From NCBI RefSeq assembly GCF_963675165.1, contig NC_087377.1:1327501-1391500 (forward strand): 64,000 bases of DNA. Direction: 5' to 3'. Each line of letters opens with the position of its first letter. Within the stretch, counting starts at the first letter, position 1. Under the pieces are notes generated by a model. That model was given only the letters and a program-made list of their open reading frames with translations. It searched no databases and was not told where the DNA came from. This stretch comes from Halichondria panicea. Its lineage: Eukaryota; Porifera; Demospongiae; Suberitida; Halichondriidae. The position numbers and the translations under genes are program-made. Shown one piece after another: positions 528 through 46,627 of this stretch.

Positions 528-875
528 ATGTATGCTCCACACAGGCCTTGTGAATGCTGCGAACTACCTCTCCGTCCTCAATCTTTGCAGCAATCTCCAC
601 TAATCGACCGTAAGTAGCTGTTGAATTCAATGGATACATTTCGAGAATACTTTTACTCTTCCACATCTTCAGAGCAGCGAGAAATCTTCCTGGGATATTA
701 TCAACCATGGAAGGACACTTATCGATAGCGTCAATCTTAGCATCACTGAGGCCCAGCCTGAGTTTGTATCTGTCATAGCCAGCAATCTCGGTACACAACT
801 GAAGAAGAGCTTCATCCGAGCACTCTTGATTCAACTGAGCGGCAGTCGCTGTCACTATCGTCTGATGTGGTTGAA
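528..875 (-). CDS. Death-like domain exon (copy 1, intact)
   Basis: Internal exon of 348 nt (116 codons), phase 1 at both ends, with acceptor TACAG before TTCAACC and donor GTGAGT. The peptide has the helical pattern of a Death-fold domain: LGLSDAKIDAID, then IPGRFLAALKMWKSK, then ATYGRLVEIAAKIEDG and VVRSIHKACVEHT. In this family such domains bind each other in apoptosis or innate-immune signalling complexes; the partner here is unknown. Other exons of the gene are not identified. A close second copy lies 570 bp upstream in the gene's direction. Confidence 0.7.
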
Positions 876-1447
876 CTGTACAGAACAAAATACCTTACAA
901 TGACAATGTAATGCACGTAGTAGCTTATAATACTCTGAACTGTACACCACATACGAGACGTACACAATACAACTATAAGGCTATATACACTCAACCACTT
1001 TAGACTATAATATTATACTGAACTTACATTGACTATAATTTTTATACTTGTACAATTATTATGTCACGCGTGATTACTTTGCGAGTACCAGCATTTATAG
1101 CAACAAGCTAGCCTCCCCTAGCCGCTCATTGCATCATTCCCAAGTGGTTCCCTTAATTATAAGCTTAATCCCTTCACACTAAAATCAATAATTATTCAAG
1201 TTCCAACAAACACACTTGCAATGTGAAAAAACTTACAGGACTGGGCAGGAAAAGCACCAAAAAGCATGGAAACATGCAAGGAGAGAGCTGTATACCAATG
1301 ACATTGACATTGACAGTACAATCATAATTATGTTGCCAACATTTAGAATGCTGTACAGAGTTCACTATAATTATCGTGGCACTATAATTATACACGAGCA
1401 AGCTCACAAAGGTAATGGTGAAAGTGATGATTCACTAGGTAACTCAC

Positions 1448-1785
1448 TGGTATGCTCCACACAGGCCTTGTGAATGCTGCGAACTGCCTCTCCGTCCTCA
1501 ATCTTTGTAGCAATTTCCACTAATCGACCGTAAGTAGCTGTTGAATTGGATGGATAGTCGAGAATGATGCTTTTACTCTTCCACTTCTTTAGAGCAGTGT
1601 GAAACCTCCCTGGGATGTTATCAACAGTCCGATCGATAGCACTAATCTCAGCATCACTGAGGCCCAGCCTGTGCTTGTATCTGTCATAGACAGCAATCTC
1701 AGTAGACAACTGGAGAAGAGCTTCATCCGAGCGCTCTTACTCAACTGAGCTGTAGTCGCTGTCACTATTGTCTCATGTGGTTGAA
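1448..1785 (-). pseudogene. Death-like domain exon (copy 2, frameshifted)
   Basis: A tandem duplicate of the 528-875 exon that keeps the same acceptor (CTACAG before TTCAACC) and donor context (GTGAGT). It is 338 nt against 348, so its length is not a multiple of three. A one-base loss lies in the N-terminal part (TTGAGTAAGAGC against TTGAATCAAGAGTGC in copy 1), and the segment before VDNIPGRF is shortened. Downstream of that the frame still reads YDRYKHRLGLSDAEISAID and IPGRFHTALKKWKSKS. It is either a dead exon or one used in another phase. Confidence 0.6.
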
Positions 1786-1974
1786 CTGTAGAGATAAAAC
1801 GTATGTTCTAAAAATAGCAGCGCACACATGCAATCATACAGATTTAATTATAGTAGCTGTGAAAATGAGGTGGATGTGGCTACCAGCCCTGGATGTTTTC
1901 TATTTGAACGCTAGGTCGATAACTATTTTTAATCAGGGCTGGTGCGAGACTATCGAACAACCCTCCACAGTGGT

Positions 1975-2067
1975 CTATCCTCGGCATCACAAACAAGCCA
2001 AGAAGCTCGCCTCTACACTGCTGCAAAACAGCTCAAGCCCCCAGCAAAAAGAGCTGCTTCTAGTGCT
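1975..2067 (+). repeat. Left half of an older dispersed repeat, split by the DNA transposon
   Basis: This segment (AAGCCAAGAAGCTCGCCTC, CTACACTGCTGCAAAACAGC, TTCTAGTGCT) matches 24385-24466. The match resumes at 7417 after the 5349-bp insertion. It is the interrupted target of the Academ-like element. Confidence 0.75.
2059..2067. repeat. Left 9-bp target-site duplication TCTAGTGCT
   Basis: TCTAGTGCT directly precedes the left terminal inverted repeat and recurs exactly at 7417-7425 after the right one. The related empty site near 24457-24465 has the word only once. Confidence 0.85.
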
Positions 2068-2136
2068 TAGCCTCGAGACCAGCCGTTCGTTATCTGAAAG
2101 AACGCCTGGTCAAGTTCCAATGTAGCACTCGTTCTA
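2068..2136 (+). repeat. Left terminal inverted repeat (69 bp)
   Basis: Begins TAGCCTCGAGACCAGCC and ends CACTCGTTCTA. It is the exact reverse complement of 7348-7416; similarity stops at the next base. Confidence 0.9.
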
Positions 2137-2286
2137 TGGTCCAGGAATTTCTTGGACCGATAATTGCCCGCAACAAGGTGTGAAAACCATAATTATTTAC
2201 CTGTGAATATCATTATGACGTTACAGCAACGGCAGCTAGCTAGCTTGGACCATTCAACGTACTTGCTGCCTGTACTGTGAGACACT

Positions 2287-5200
2287 ATGAGTGTAGCTAT
2301 AGCTCATCAGAAAATGGACCATTACACTTGCTGCCTGTGTAAATCAACGCTTCCTAGTGATAAGAGGACAAGGAGAAAACTGCATGGAGAAAGTTGCAAG
2401 GAAGTAAAAGAGCAATTACAAGGCATCTCAGTTGTTCCATTGGCCAACTTTGAAGAGACAAGTGACCCAACTGCATACTTATGCCGCAAATGTGAGCAAC
2501 AGGTCATATCCTTTGGTAATTGGACTGCAAAAGCAACTGCACTGAAGAAATGTATTGAAACTCTTCTTTCTCAGCTACATTGCACTCGAAAAAGATCCAT
2601 TTCCGCAGATGCTCAGTCAAGTACGCCAAAACAACCACGTTTATCACTAGGCCCTATTAGGCCTAGCAGTTCATATATTCCTCCTGCAGAGAGTCAGAAA
2701 TCCCCAGATGTCAAGGTATTGCTGATGCATGGAACTTTATCATATCATGCGTATATATATATATAGTTGCGTATAGTATTGATTATTGTTCGTTCTCGTG
2801 GTATATAGGTTAGAATCAATTACAAATCCGGACCAAAAGAACTCAAGATATGCACTCCTGCGAGGAAAACAGGCATCAAACGTTTTGCACGGAAAAGTTA
2901 TAAGTCACTGGCATCAACTATGGTCAATTCTAAGGATACTTTGAAACCAATTGTCTCGGAAGTGTGTCTTAAAATTAAAAAAGAGATGAAAAGCCTTAGC
3001 TCTGACCAATACGACTCCATTTTAAGGGACAGGATTGAAGCAGTAAAGTGTTTCAGCTGGGAAACAGTGATTTTGGATATGGAAAAAATGATTCCTACTC
3101 TACTTTCTTTATTGAGACAAGTAGTTCCACAACCAGCTAAGCATAAACCATTGATTTGTTTCTTAGCATCCCTACTAATAAAGTCGCGACACAAGCGCAT
3201 GGGGCTGGTACAGCGTGCAACTTCAATCATGTTGTATGGAAATGGATCTAACAAACAGGTAATAATACAAACATATATTCCTATATAACTTCTATATATC
3301 TATCCTACTTCAGATCTACATGAACCTTCAGCCTCTCAACATATGTTTGTCTTATCAAGGGACACTCAATCTTGTGGAAGCAATCAGTGAGGGGTATGAT
3401 GTGGCTGTTGAATATTGGGGAGATGAATTAAAAGAGAAGTTAACGTCACTTGAGCAAGTAAGTATGCGACATTGTGTGATGCATGTATATACGTATCATA
3501 AGAAGGTTGGCCACAAATTATAACAATTATTGATTATACAGTTATATATATGCAAGTGCATGTATAATTATTGTGCAGGTTGATGGGTGTAGCTCAATCC
3601 CAATCACTCACCGAAAGCTTGCACCAGCCTTTTTAAGGGATAATGACGACGACTCTGACTCTGATAGTCACAATTATGCCCCAGATTTCAGTCCTTTGTC
3701 GGATATGGAATTTGAAAATTTTGAATTGTTTTCTGAAGATAGTTCATGTGATGACACACACGATGTTCAAGCGAAAGATAACGAAGCTGACAGTAATGAC
3801 TCAGAAGTGCAGCAAACAGATGATGATGACGATTCGTTGTCCGGACAAGAAGATTTAGATCCCACACAAGCCGATTCGTCATGGAATGGCTTCAAGATCG
3901 TGGGTGATAATATTGATAAAAATATCAAACCATCTTTTCAGCGTCACGAAATTAAAGGAAAATCCCTCCACTATTTTCATTCGTACGCAGTGAAGGATAG
4001 AGTGGACCTATCTTCCCTCAGTGATACTACTCCAGAAATATGTGACCCTGACCCAAGCATGCTTGTGCCGTGTGCAGACGATATATCTTGCATATTGAAA
4101 GAAATAGAAATTCTTCTGTCCAGGTATAATTATGTGGTATATAATTGTACTATAAGACTATTGTATGCATGCATGCATGCATGGTTCCATATACGTATAA
4201 TGTATAACTATAATTATTATAGGGTTATTGTTCAGCACATGGAAGGATACAAAGATCAAGCAACGAAAATAATATGGCATATACAAAGCAAGCAAAACAA
4301 GGAGATGGCTCTAAAGTCTCTAGTGGTAATTTAAAATTGTTATGCCACATTATACATAATTTGGTTCGTTTTTAGGTGCCACTTGGGGTACTCCTTCACA
4401 ATGAAAATAAGCTTAATGAAATGTGTAAGATCCTGGAACACTGTGTGAAGTTTGTTCCTACCCGACCAGCTGAAGGAAAGTACATTCTTCCTAATGGGAG
4501 TATACTCGACTTTGATGATACACGATTCTTCAAAATACTTCTTGGTGGCGACCAACTAACAGTGGCCAGAGTACGTGGTGCCCAAGCACTTCGAATGTCA
4601 CAAGACAAGGCTAAAGACCGACTAGAAGGGATCGTTCCAGTAGTCGAGGATTGGCATGCCAGAATGACACTCATGAAGGTAAGAAAAATGGATATAAAAA
4701 CTGCATGTGTGTAATTGTAGAACTCGGATTGTTTTATTTATGCATTTGTTCAATTTAGACTATATGGCAACGGCTTTATTCTGTGAAGTCATCACGGGAT
4801 AAAGGGACTATGTACCAACTGAGAAATTTGATTAATAGGACATCTGTACCAACTGATCCTTGTGACAACATGAACTCTGCTGAAGATTACTTCTTGCTGC
4901 TGGTGCATACACATGCCATTGCTGCTGCAAAGGAAATACTTTCATACACCTCGATGGATTCAGTTTCAGATCTTGCCAAAGCAATCACAACCAACTTTAC
5001 ATACGTTTCACATCTAGATTTTTCTCAGCAAACTACTGAAAAACAGAAGACAGTAGATGATAGTGTACATTTATACGCAGTTGAACTATTGACCCTAGGA
5101 TTGTTGTGGCATGGCTTCCATGATGCCATCAAAGAGGGTGATGGGGAACGAATCATGAGGTATTGGAAGTTTTTGTTAATTCTATTTAAGTCGACCAATC

Positions 5201-5697
5201 ACCCCAATTATGCTAAAGAGGCAGTGAATTTGTTGCTGCAATACAACTACTTGTTTTCTGAAAGGCAAAAGTCTCAACTTCTTTGGAGTAGATGCGTAAA
5301 TACACGAGGGCTCCCTGGAACCAACATTCCGTGTGATCTTCACATGGAACATCTTAACAGAAGACTAAAGACAGTGCTAAGGAATATGGGAGCAAATGTC
5401 AACGACAAAACCGTTACAAAAGCTGGGAAGTGTATTGCTGTTGTGCAACGTGTCTGTCAAGCTTTTGAGGAACAAACTTCTTCTACGGCCTCACGCTCTG
5501 ACAATCACCCCTACCCTAAATTTGGGAAGGACTTTGACATGGTGCTGAACGTTCTCGAACAAGAAAGAGTCTTTACGTATACAGCAAACAGAAAACATGA
5601 TACTTTCAGTTTTTCTAAAGGACTACTCGTAAAACTATCTAAGAAGCAGCTTCTCAATAAAGTCCAGACTAGCATTGACCAGATATATTTGGTGTAA
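2287..5697 (+). CDS. DUF6589/Academ-type transposase, seven exons, about 970 aa
   Basis: Probable transposase of the surrounding element, cutting and joining its terminal repeats. Exons are 2287-2715, 2809-3258, 3314-3457, 3579-4123, 4223-4325, 4376-4678 and 4759-5697. All have GT-AG borders and phases join into one 2913-nt frame. The N-terminus has a zinc-finger-like pair (C15xxC18, C66xxC69). An acidic low-complexity stretch (DNDDDSDSDS, DDDDDSLSGQ) lies mid-protein. The core has GGDQLTVARVRGAQ near residue 615, EDWHARM near 650, then NMNSAEDYF and DLHMEHLNRRLK, typical of DUF6589 proteins. Acidic residues in GGDQ and EDWH are candidate catalytic positions, by inference. ATG 2287 lies 150 bp inside the left repeat. 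Confidence 0.85.
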
Positions 5698-5858
5698 CGA
5701 ACAGTCAATTTATGTCCTCTATCATTGTTATTATTAATATGCAAAACTTGTCGTCAACATTATACTAACATATACATATGCATTAATTAGAATCATACGT
5801 AACTGATTTAATTTCAGTCATGATGCCAATCAGGCATGTATACCTAGCATAATTTCAG

Positions 5859-7308
5859 TTAATCAAACTTCTCACAAGACAATACACATAAATCACAGCA
5901 TCTAGATCGGCTCATTCTTACTGAACCATCGTAATACTTCAAAAAACCTTCGAACAGAAGTTTTCGCCTACAAACAGTAGCATTGCTCACATACTCTTTT
6001 AGTCTTTCAGAAGAATGTTGTCCACCCTTTCCTTCAAACAAGGTTGCTTTAGCATCTAAACCGTCTCGACCAGCACGACCAGTCTCCTGGACATATTCTT
6101 CCATGTTTGATGGTAACCCCCAATGAAAAATTTGTCGAATATCAGAACAATCTATGCCAAGCCCAAAAGCTGATGTGGCAATTATTAATCGCAGCTTCAT
6201 TCCAGTTCCTAAAAATGATGATATCACTTGCTCTTTCTTTTCAGATGTATGAACACTGCTAAACATATCAAACAGCCGGTATTCTGAAAGATTTGGGTAC
6301 CCAGGAGGATCTGTCATATCTTCACCAAGCTTGCGTGTTAAAGCAATGTATAAATCCGAACAATCCCTATATCTGCGAACAAATACCACAGTTTTTGGGT
6401 ACGCAGTTCGTTTTCGGCACAGCCCGTAACACAAATCCTCACTCAACCTTTCAAGATCAATCTTTGGTTCTAACGTATAGAAGATATTACCACGATCAGG
6501 GGGTAATGCAACCAATACTGGCTCCTTCATACTTAGTCGTTTGGATACAATATTAAAGGTTTCTATAGTGGCAGTAGCTGTGAGAGCCATCACGTTAACT
6601 TCAGTGGGTATGATACTGCGTAAGTCACCAAGTGCTGCAAAGGCTCTTCTAAATTGATCCCCCCATGTTTTAACACAGTGGGCTTCATCCACTATTAATG
6701 CCACAAGCTTCTTCATGTACACTTCACTCTGGAGCATATCTCTATATCGAGCATTGTTCATAATGTTCTCTGGAGTTATAAAAACTAACTGCACTACTCC
6801 ATCGAGCACTCTCTTTGTTGCTTCTTGGTCAAGTTGTGCCTCTCCTACAAATTCTGCTTTCAAACCGCTCCGAGTAAATTTAGAACTTTGATCAACCATG
6901 AGAGACGACAAAGGGCTGATACACAAAACAATACTTCCACACGAATCTGCATGTGGAACGTTATAATGTAATCTGTTATAATTGGCATTCATATTACTTA
7001 CTATAATGCAAAAAATTAATCTGCATTCATTACTTAGATCTATTACCTTTCAGTTTGTCAAATACAAGTGGCAGAACGGCATATATGATAGATTTTCCAT
7101 ATCCAGTAGGGAGTGATACAAATATGTCATGGCCTTCAACAAACTTGAGGACAGCTTCCAACTGTTTATCTTTGAGACTTTCTATTCCTAGTTGTCGGGC
7201 ACTGTCAGATATAGCTGCAGCTACTCTCTTCTCCATCTCTATTTCTTCACACTGCAAACACATGCACACCCCCGTAGTATTGTTGTGTTTGCGGTTACCG
7301 CAATGCAT
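5859..7308 (-). CDS. RecQ-like SF2 DNA helicase of the transposon, two exons, about 449 aa
   Basis: An ATP-dependent DNA unwinding enzyme, here transposon-encoded. Exon 1 is 7308-7047 and exon 2 is 6946-5859; they join in phase 1 (donor GTAATAG, acceptor ATGCAG) into 1350 nt. Motif I is LPTGYGKS (about 66-73), motif Ia is VLCISPLSSLMVDQ, motif II is VDEAHC (about 173-178) followed by KTWGDQFR, then TATATIETF, and motif VI is QETGRAGRDG. The C-terminus is cysteine-rich (CRRKLLF, CCDLCVLSCEKFD), resembling the start of the RecQ zinc-binding segment, but no winged-helix or HRDC domain follows. The start is 40 bp inside the right terminal repeat. A host RecQ is unlikely given its place inside the repeats. 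Confidence 0.88.
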
Positions 7309-7347
7309 GCCGCAATCATGTCGTAACTAACCACTCGCTGACTCAGC

Positions 7348-7416
7348 TAGAACGAGTGCTACATTGGAACTTGACCAGGCGTTCTTTCAGATAACGAACG
7401 GCTGGTCTCGAGGCTA
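7348..7416 (-). repeat. Right terminal inverted repeat (69 bp)
   Basis: Exact reverse complement of 2068-2136, ending CTCGAGGCTA and followed at once by the second copy of the 9-bp duplication at 7417-7425. Confidence 0.9.
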
Positions 7417-7830
7417 TCTAGTGCTATGGTGAAACAGAATTGACATGCATCACAAGGTCGAGAACTAGTTGGGCGTGGCTTAGTTGGGCGTGGCTCGACC
7501 GTCTCCCGTCAGGAGACGGTCGAGCCACGCCCAACTAGTCGAGAACTAGGTCTAGGAACACAGAAATCGAATCTTCCACAAAATGAACCTTGGACAATTT
7601 TAAAACCTGCATTGTTAAGGGTGCAAAGAAGAAGCTCCAGTCCAGCAGTGCTGAACATTCCTGCATGGCTTTACTTTGATACTTGTTATTTCTCATGATA
7701 ATTTTAATTGTCTGTCTAATTGCCAGAGGGGCGTTTTGTGGTTATGCATTATGACTTTGCATTGTGACTTTCAGCAGTGCATTATGCTGCATATTGCACT
7801 TGGCAACAACGTAGCAATGGGATATAAACT
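7417..7830 (+). repeat. Right half of the dispersed repeat split by the transposon
   Basis: Continues the match to 24457-24810, for example CAGAATTGACATGCATCAC, AATGAACCTTGGACAATTTT, and CATATTGCACTTGGCAACAA. It includes the small fold-back insertion at 7469-7537, which the paralog lacks. Confidence 0.7.
7457..7549. mobile_element. 69-bp fold-back insertion with 12-bp flanking direct repeats
   Basis: GTCGAGAACTAG at 7457-7468 is repeated at 7538-7549. Between them, 7481-7506 and 7512-7537 are perfect 26-bp inverted arms around a 5-nt loop (CGTCA), preceded by TTGGGCGTGGCT. The paralogous repeat at 24.5 kb has the flanking word once and no hairpin, so this is an insertion. Confidence 0.75.
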
Positions 7831-24070: not shown

Positions 24071-24384
24071 TAGTTTATATCCCGAGGGCATAGCAACATA
24101 ACACTGTCCTAGTAACACAATATAAACTGCACAAAAAAAGACAGAGACAACTCTAGACACAGCTCCATCTCTTCTCTCTTCTAGACGCCAGTATATCTGC
24201 AGCCTATAAGATTGGCAACCGACGAATGGCTTGACACAAAATTGTTGGAGTTCCAACGCTGAAATCTGCAAAAGAGCCCCACCCCACTTCTGGTGCTGCA
24301 AAACAGCCCCGCCCCACCTACTGCTGCATAAAAACAGCCCCACCCCACTACTCAGTGCAGTGAATACATGTTGGTGCTGGTCTA

Positions 24385-24810
24385 CGCTCGGCCTCATAAC
24401 CAAGCCAAGAAAGCTCCCTTCTACACTGCTGCAAAACAGCTCATGCCCCCAGTAAAAAGAGCCACTTCTAGTGCTACGGTGAAGCAGAATTGACATGCAT
24501 CACGAGGTCGAGGACTAGGTCCATCTAGGAACACAGAATCTTCCACAAAATGAATCTTGGACAATTTTAAAACCTGCATGGTTGCAAGAAGAAACTCCAG
24601 CAGTGCTGAACATTCATTCCTGCATGGCTGGACATACTTTGATACTTGTTATTTCTCATGCGTATTAATTTAATTTTAATTAATTTAAATGCCAGAGGGG
24701 TGTTTTGTGGTCAGTGCAATATGACTTTTCAGCAGTGCAATATGACTTTTCAGCAGTGCAATATGCTTCATATTGCACTTGGCAACAACATAGCAACGGG
24801 ATATAATGAT
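24385..24810 (+). repeat. Uninterrupted paralog of the transposon's target repeat
   Basis: Matches 1975-2067 joined to 7417-7830 (TCTACACTGCTGCAAAACAG, ACTTCTAGTGCTACGGTG, CAGAATTGACATGCATCAC, TTGGCAACAACATAGCAACG). It contains TCTAGTGCT once, lacks the 5349-bp element, and lacks the 69-bp fold-back insertion. It therefore acts as an empty-site reference for both insertions. Confidence 0.75.
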
Positions 24811-46475: not shown

Positions 46476-46627
46476 TAATTATAATTATTATAATTATAGT
46501 TGTGTGATGTGCTGGCATGTACGCACTTTGTTCACAGATTGAAATCAGAGTAACAACTTCATGTGTAGTATTATTATTAGTTAATCATTATAAAAAGGGC
46601 CTCATCTTCTCTAGTGCTCTCTCCGGC

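Follow-up and report, generated by a model that had tools for sequence, protein, structure and literature searches.

We describe in the sponge Halichondria panicea a DNA transposon that is very probably an autonomous element of the AcademH kind. The element occupies positions 2068-7416 (5,349 bp) of a 64,000-nucleotide stretch of contig NC_087377.1 (positions 1,327,501 to 1,391,500 of the forward strand, assembly GCF_963675165.1), hereafter called the window. It represents a new, young and recently active family of a kind of transposon that has already been described.

The left and right terminal inverted repeats of the element (2068-2136 on the plus strand and 7348-7416 on the minus strand) pair with each other over all 69 nucleotides with 100% complementarity. 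Each is directly abutted on the plus strand by the 9-bp word TCTAGTGCT, at 2059-2067 on the left and 7417-7425 on the right, as the two copies of a target-site duplication (TSD). When the flanks were joined by script, they matched positions 24378-24518 (plus strand) of the window across the junction with 88.7% identity over 141 columns, and a second piece of the joined flanks matched 24507-24806 at 78.6%. Because the flanks align across this junction and the word is single there, at 24467, we identify the element as an insertion that duplicated 9 bp of the host repeat, of which an unoccupied paralog lies in the same window. An earlier note on this DNA, made from the letters alone, had pointed to the exact inverted ends, to the same word at both flanks and to an empty-site paralog carrying it once, and the alignments bear out all three. 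In the window the word occurs four times on the plus strand (both flanks, the paralog and position 46610) and not at all on the minus strand. Just right of the insertion lies a palindrome (7464-7539) with perfect 26-bp arms around a 5-bp loop, plus another arm of 17 bp; roughly 7469-7537 of it has no counterpart in the paralog at 24.4 kb, and it is possibly a separate foldback element.

The element is predicted to carry two genes, arranged tail to tail. The transposase model joins seven exons on the plus strand (2287-2715, 2809-3258, 3314-3457, 3579-4123, 4223-4325, 4376-4678 and 4759-5697, the last with the stop codon) through GT-AG introns into a protein of 970 residues, from a presumed start ATG that is followed 27 bp on by a second in-frame ATG. 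The helicase model on the minus strand joins exon 1 (7047-7236, start ATG likewise presumed) to exon 2 (5859-6946, with the stop codon) into a protein of 425 residues. The 970-residue protein matches the Pfam family DUF6589 with an expectation value (E) of 3.4e-51, and its only other Pfam match at E up to 1, YlbD_coat, is sub-threshold. Alignment places D451 in a GDNID motif of exon 4, D616 and D649 in the GDQLT and DWH motifs of exon 6, and E855 in an HMEHLN motif of exon 7, which also holds the C-terminal part of DUF6589. All four residues are invariant in the six relatives aligned (6/6), among 12 invariant Asp or Glu positions altogether. Judged from its sequence, the DUF6589 protein is likely a DDE (Asp-Asp-Glu) transposase with D451, D616 and E855 as candidate triad, D649 being invariant as well.

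The second protein matches DEAD (3.9e-23) and Helicase_C (2.2e-11); a match to RecQ_Zn_bind (E 0.03) stays below the cut-off of that model. With 238.3 bits the protein exceeds the curated threshold of TIGR00614 recQ_fam (219.8 bits) but not those set for the RecQ equivalog models. Among solved chains, WRN and BLM are the closest (about 1e-36) in a search with the exon 2 open frame. The pairing of a DUF6589 transposase with a superfamily 2 helicase proposed in the earlier note is thereby confirmed, the helicase being of the RecQ type. Among the Pfam matches of the proteins of the window element there is no nuclease model, and transposase exon 7 gave no match to viral contigs.

The host genome searched comprises 131,455,214 bases in 39 contigs. 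For the 69-bp end, the best 40 of 285 first-look candidates were scored, and the resulting counts are lower bounds: at least 63 matches were obtained, at least 36 of them exact (69/69). These correspond to 30 two-ended elements and three single ends (L021, L025 and L037, with one recognizable end in the stretch fetched), which were excluded from the duplication counts. Six copies are full-length, namely the window element and L009-L012 (5,349 bp each) and L013 (5,575 bp), and their pairwise identity is 99.89-100%. An interior query (2137-3300) retrieved these six again and, among the best 40 of 153 candidates scored, no other long match of high identity. All five copies of 5,349 bp keep both predicted reading frames intact; L010 and L011 have the same sequence, and L009-L012 encode the same protein sequences. 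The earlier note's view of a recent element is supported by this near-identity and by the intact frames, and its ends prove to be conserved in other copies. L013 has lost 7 bp, gained 5 bp within exon 4 and acquired a nested palindromic insert of about 228 bp, which lies in the first transposase intron, apparently at a TA site.

Another 23 copies are short (219-237 bp) and have the ends of the window element. One of them, L024, aligns to the window element at 88.7% identity in its first 151 bases and at 100% in its last 80. L014 (1,317 bp, 601-1917) is also a short non-autonomous copy. We rejected its reading as an internal-deletion derivative, because it looks like a short element into which a sequence with a poly-T run, resembling a long interspersed nuclear element (LINE), has inserted. 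This insertion seems 5′-truncated, and its LINE likeness is our own reading, made without a database match. A degraded copy of the helicase (L047/L059) was found near the single end L025.

The 30 two-ended elements comprise 20 with exact 9-bp TSDs, two with exact 10-bp TSDs, two with 9-bp TSDs containing one mismatch and six with none. Comparison of flanks identified three groups of duplicated loci (L016/L017/L018, L020/L022 and L027/L033/L038), and merging them left 25 independent insertions: 19 with exact 9-bp duplications, one with 10 bp, two with one-mismatch 9 bp and three with none. The 10-bp case sits in a CA-rich repeat and is weak. Matching 9-bp flanking words thus recur exactly in 19 of the 25 independent copies, and these 19 sites show no strong base preference. 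Two copies without matching duplications, L011 (G000:C10:1593011-1598359) and L010 (C10:1620706-1626054), are 100% identical, lie in opposite orientation about 22 kb apart, and are linked by their flanks: reverse-complementing the inner flank of one copy (ATAGAACCA) gives the outer flank of its partner, and the remaining flank pair does not match. These are signs of inversion or recombination between copies, or of aberrant transposition, and neither origin is settled because both predict a second matching pair of flanks, which is unseen.

The AcademH lineage was reportedly defined by Kojima in 2020. According to a passage of a later paper (Kojima 2023, PMC10045372), AcademH elements generate duplications of 9 or 10 bp and AcademX elements, of the same superfamily, 3 or 4 bp, a difference that seems tied to the encoded helicase or nuclease. 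The window element resembles AcademH as that passage describes it, both in encoding a helicase and in the length of its duplication, and differs from AcademX, which has a nuclease and 3-4 bp where the window element has a helicase and 9 bp. Its 9 bp are therefore ordinary for AcademH at 9-10 bp (PMC10045372, same passage), and the comparison with that lineage suggested in the earlier note returns the expected length. As far as these two features go, the note's choice of lineage is supported too. In the portions of the text available to us, fungal AcademH is mentioned in PMC10799480, and PMC8290104, PMC10294476 and PMC12210899 mention Academ elements with no added criterion. Our literature search found nothing for DUF6589, nor for Academ together with sponge.

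Long inverted ends and 9-bp duplications are typical of Mutator-like elements (MULEs, MuDR superfamily), and the 69-bp ends and 9-bp TSDs of the window element would suit such an origin. Its 970-residue protein, however, matches DUF6589 strongly and, with matches admitted up to E 1, hits none of the MULE models, and a RecQ helicase is not known as a MULE feature, so that we find a MULE most improbable. A Kolobok-type transposon with a RecQ helicase, similar to KolobokH, also seems highly unlikely. Kolobok elements belong to another superfamily and insert at TTAA, which they duplicate, whereas the transposase of the window element is DUF6589 and the 9-bp duplications of its family vary in sequence, with TTAA in none of the 19 exact ones (0/19). 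What would favor this assignment is that, in the part of PMC9587614 consulted, KolobokH and the rhodophyte Kolobok-1_CCri are likewise DDE transposons and also code for RecQ helicases, Kolobok-1_CCri doing so from the complementary strand.

The copies could also be ancient, inactive repeats that gene conversion or recent segmental duplication, and not transposition, has kept alike, and some short copies have indeed been duplicated together with their flanks, in the three groups of loci named above. This explanation is hardly credible, since none of the six full-length copies has 300-bp flanks in common with another copy at E 1e-5 and four of the six carry different exact 9-bp duplications. An autonomous and recently active AcademH-type transposon accounts for these observations far better.

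Relatives of both genes are numerous in the same genome. The helicase query gave at least 123 matches (best 105 of 233 candidates scored) and the DUF6589 query at least 92 (best 102 of 106), the latter matching none of 14 control genomes; DUF6589 was over its cut-off in all four relatives scanned. For pairing, 48 of the 92 DUF6589 matches were taken, roughly one for each place and with E up to about 1e-10, together with 63 of the 123 helicase matches. A helicase is positioned tail to tail with DUF6589 in 28 of the 48 places, with a gap of 235-1,410 bp in 27 and of 3,906 bp in one. At 18 places there is none within 6 kb, and using all 123 helicase matches changes none of them; at the other two the helicase is in another arrangement and belongs to a neighboring element.

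Ends were sought in 14 related loci (L053-L066) and found together with duplications in five (L053, L054, L056, L063 and L064), which hold family members of full size or truncated. L056, with a transposase 28-30% identical, has TAGCCTCGA ends flanked by the 9-bp word GTGTTTACC in exact duplicate. The family formed by L053, L054, L055, L063 and L064, with a transposase 37-52% identical over pieces in L063, has an inverted end of only about 6 bp (TAGTCT/AGACTA). Duplications in this family measure 9 bp at L053, L054 and L064 and 8 bp at L063, and L055 has the ends with no duplication; at L054 and L064 the match could also be extended, since the target continues with the same bases as the start of the element. 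The figure of 8-9 bp for relatives is drawn from five copies of two families, and as far as these copies go, the length of the duplication is independent of long inverted ends. Ends with a duplication were not found in L058, L059, L060, L061, L065 and L066. L057 (3301-4085) and L062 (4470-4512) yielded smaller repeats only, with TAGCCTC-like ends and exact 9-bp words (GGCAATTTC and GTTCTTTTC, respectively), and these short stretches are possibly further non-autonomous copies.

Ratios of non-synonymous to synonymous substitution (dN/dS) for the helicase between families are 0.139 (L063-L065), 0.123 (L060-L066) and 0.332 (window-L060). Within families, where changes are few, they are 0.28-0.29 for both genes between L063 and L064, and 0.70 for the transposase and 1.04 for the helicase between L063 and L058. 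The window-L059 helicase comparison gives 1.89 from few changes; the L059 helicase contains a stop, and a ratio near 1 is therefore what such a degraded copy would give.

A DUF6589 family without helicase is represented by L067 (G000:C9:1647800-1655300), whose 1,732-residue open frame matches DUF6589 at 1e-13 and shares with the window transposase the DNID, GDQ and DWH motifs and an N-terminal cysteine motif. The 7.5-kb stretch fetched for L067 contains no second open frame longer than 132 residues, and there is no helicase match within 6 kb. Further copies were observed at C3:3629098 and C14:4797543, and two of the three have a helicase-bearing DUF6589 element as a neighbor at no more than about 5.4 kb. 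The ends of this family were placed by comparing the three copies: initial ends at 643-6293 were discarded, the copies staying alike beyond them, and were reset to 364 and 6582, where all three copies show 4-bp duplications (GAAC, TAAT and TGAA). This length fits the 3-4 bp of AcademX, and the family may belong there. The L067 and window transposases are only remotely related (19% identity over 353 columns, pairwise E 0.007), and transposase divergence is for this reason a confounder of the contrast between 9 and 4 bp. The C-terminal part of the 1,732-residue protein had looked XPG-like by motif, and searches of Pfam, PHROGs and PDB sequences gave this no support; we therefore claim no nuclease for it. 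The XPG_I model matched nine places in the genome, none of them at the DUF6589 places listed. Six XPG_I open frames of 588-601 residues are gathered in about 114 kb at G000:C13:3752339-3866203, with no listed DUF6589 match adjoining.

As to how the window family would move, the DUF6589 protein may bind the TAGCCTCGAGACCAG... ends and release the element by a putative cut-and-paste reaction. The transposase would make a 9-bp staggered cut in the target, and filling of the gaps by host repair would leave the duplication. The RecQ-type helicase is predicted to take part in this reaction as well, most likely unwinding intermediates of strand transfer or gap repair. Blm, a RecQ helicase, is linked to P-element gap repair in Drosophila, and the helicase of the window element would most likely support strand exchange or the repair of the donor gap. 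Since the short copies have no room for genes yet share the ends and the duplications, we infer that they would be mobilized in trans by the transposase of the full-length element.

Several points weigh against this picture of an active AcademH element. The splice sites and start codons of both genes are predictions, and mobility is deduced from sequence. The helicase in the window differs at two residues from that of the other four 5,349-bp copies, and the 5-bp insertion of L013 falls in a transposase exon. Three of the 25 independent insertions (L010, L011 and L034), two of them full-length, lack a matching duplication. In all between-family comparisons other than the three helicase ratios above, for both genes, synonymous divergence (dS) is saturated, and the proportion of non-synonymous differences (pN) is 0.28-0.48. 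An excerpt of PMC5386867 reports that no helicase knock-down reduced synthesis-dependent strand annealing (SDSA) in human cells. Finally, the AcademH label is taken from one statement in a passage of the later paper (PMC10045372) together with matching features.

Within this genome, helicase-bearing DUF6589 elements duplicate mostly 9 bp with inverted ends of either 69 or 6 bp, and one helicase-less DUF6589 family with a single long protein duplicates 4 bp. This pattern is the ground for a tentative suggestion, which we consider unlikely, that the partner enzyme rather than the ends sets the stagger of the target cut in this superfamily. It is possible that the helicase directly sets the 9-bp stagger, a reading confounded with transposase divergence. 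If the suggestion were true, the integration complex would include the helicase as an integral component. What this analysis adds is the contrast of duplication lengths within one genome, 9 bp with a helicase and 4 bp without, which bears on the link between accessory enzyme and duplication length suggested by Kojima. This young sponge family, with predicted genes that are intact, copies that hardly differ and short substrates supplied by nature, is well suited as a point of departure for testing the function of an AcademH transposon.

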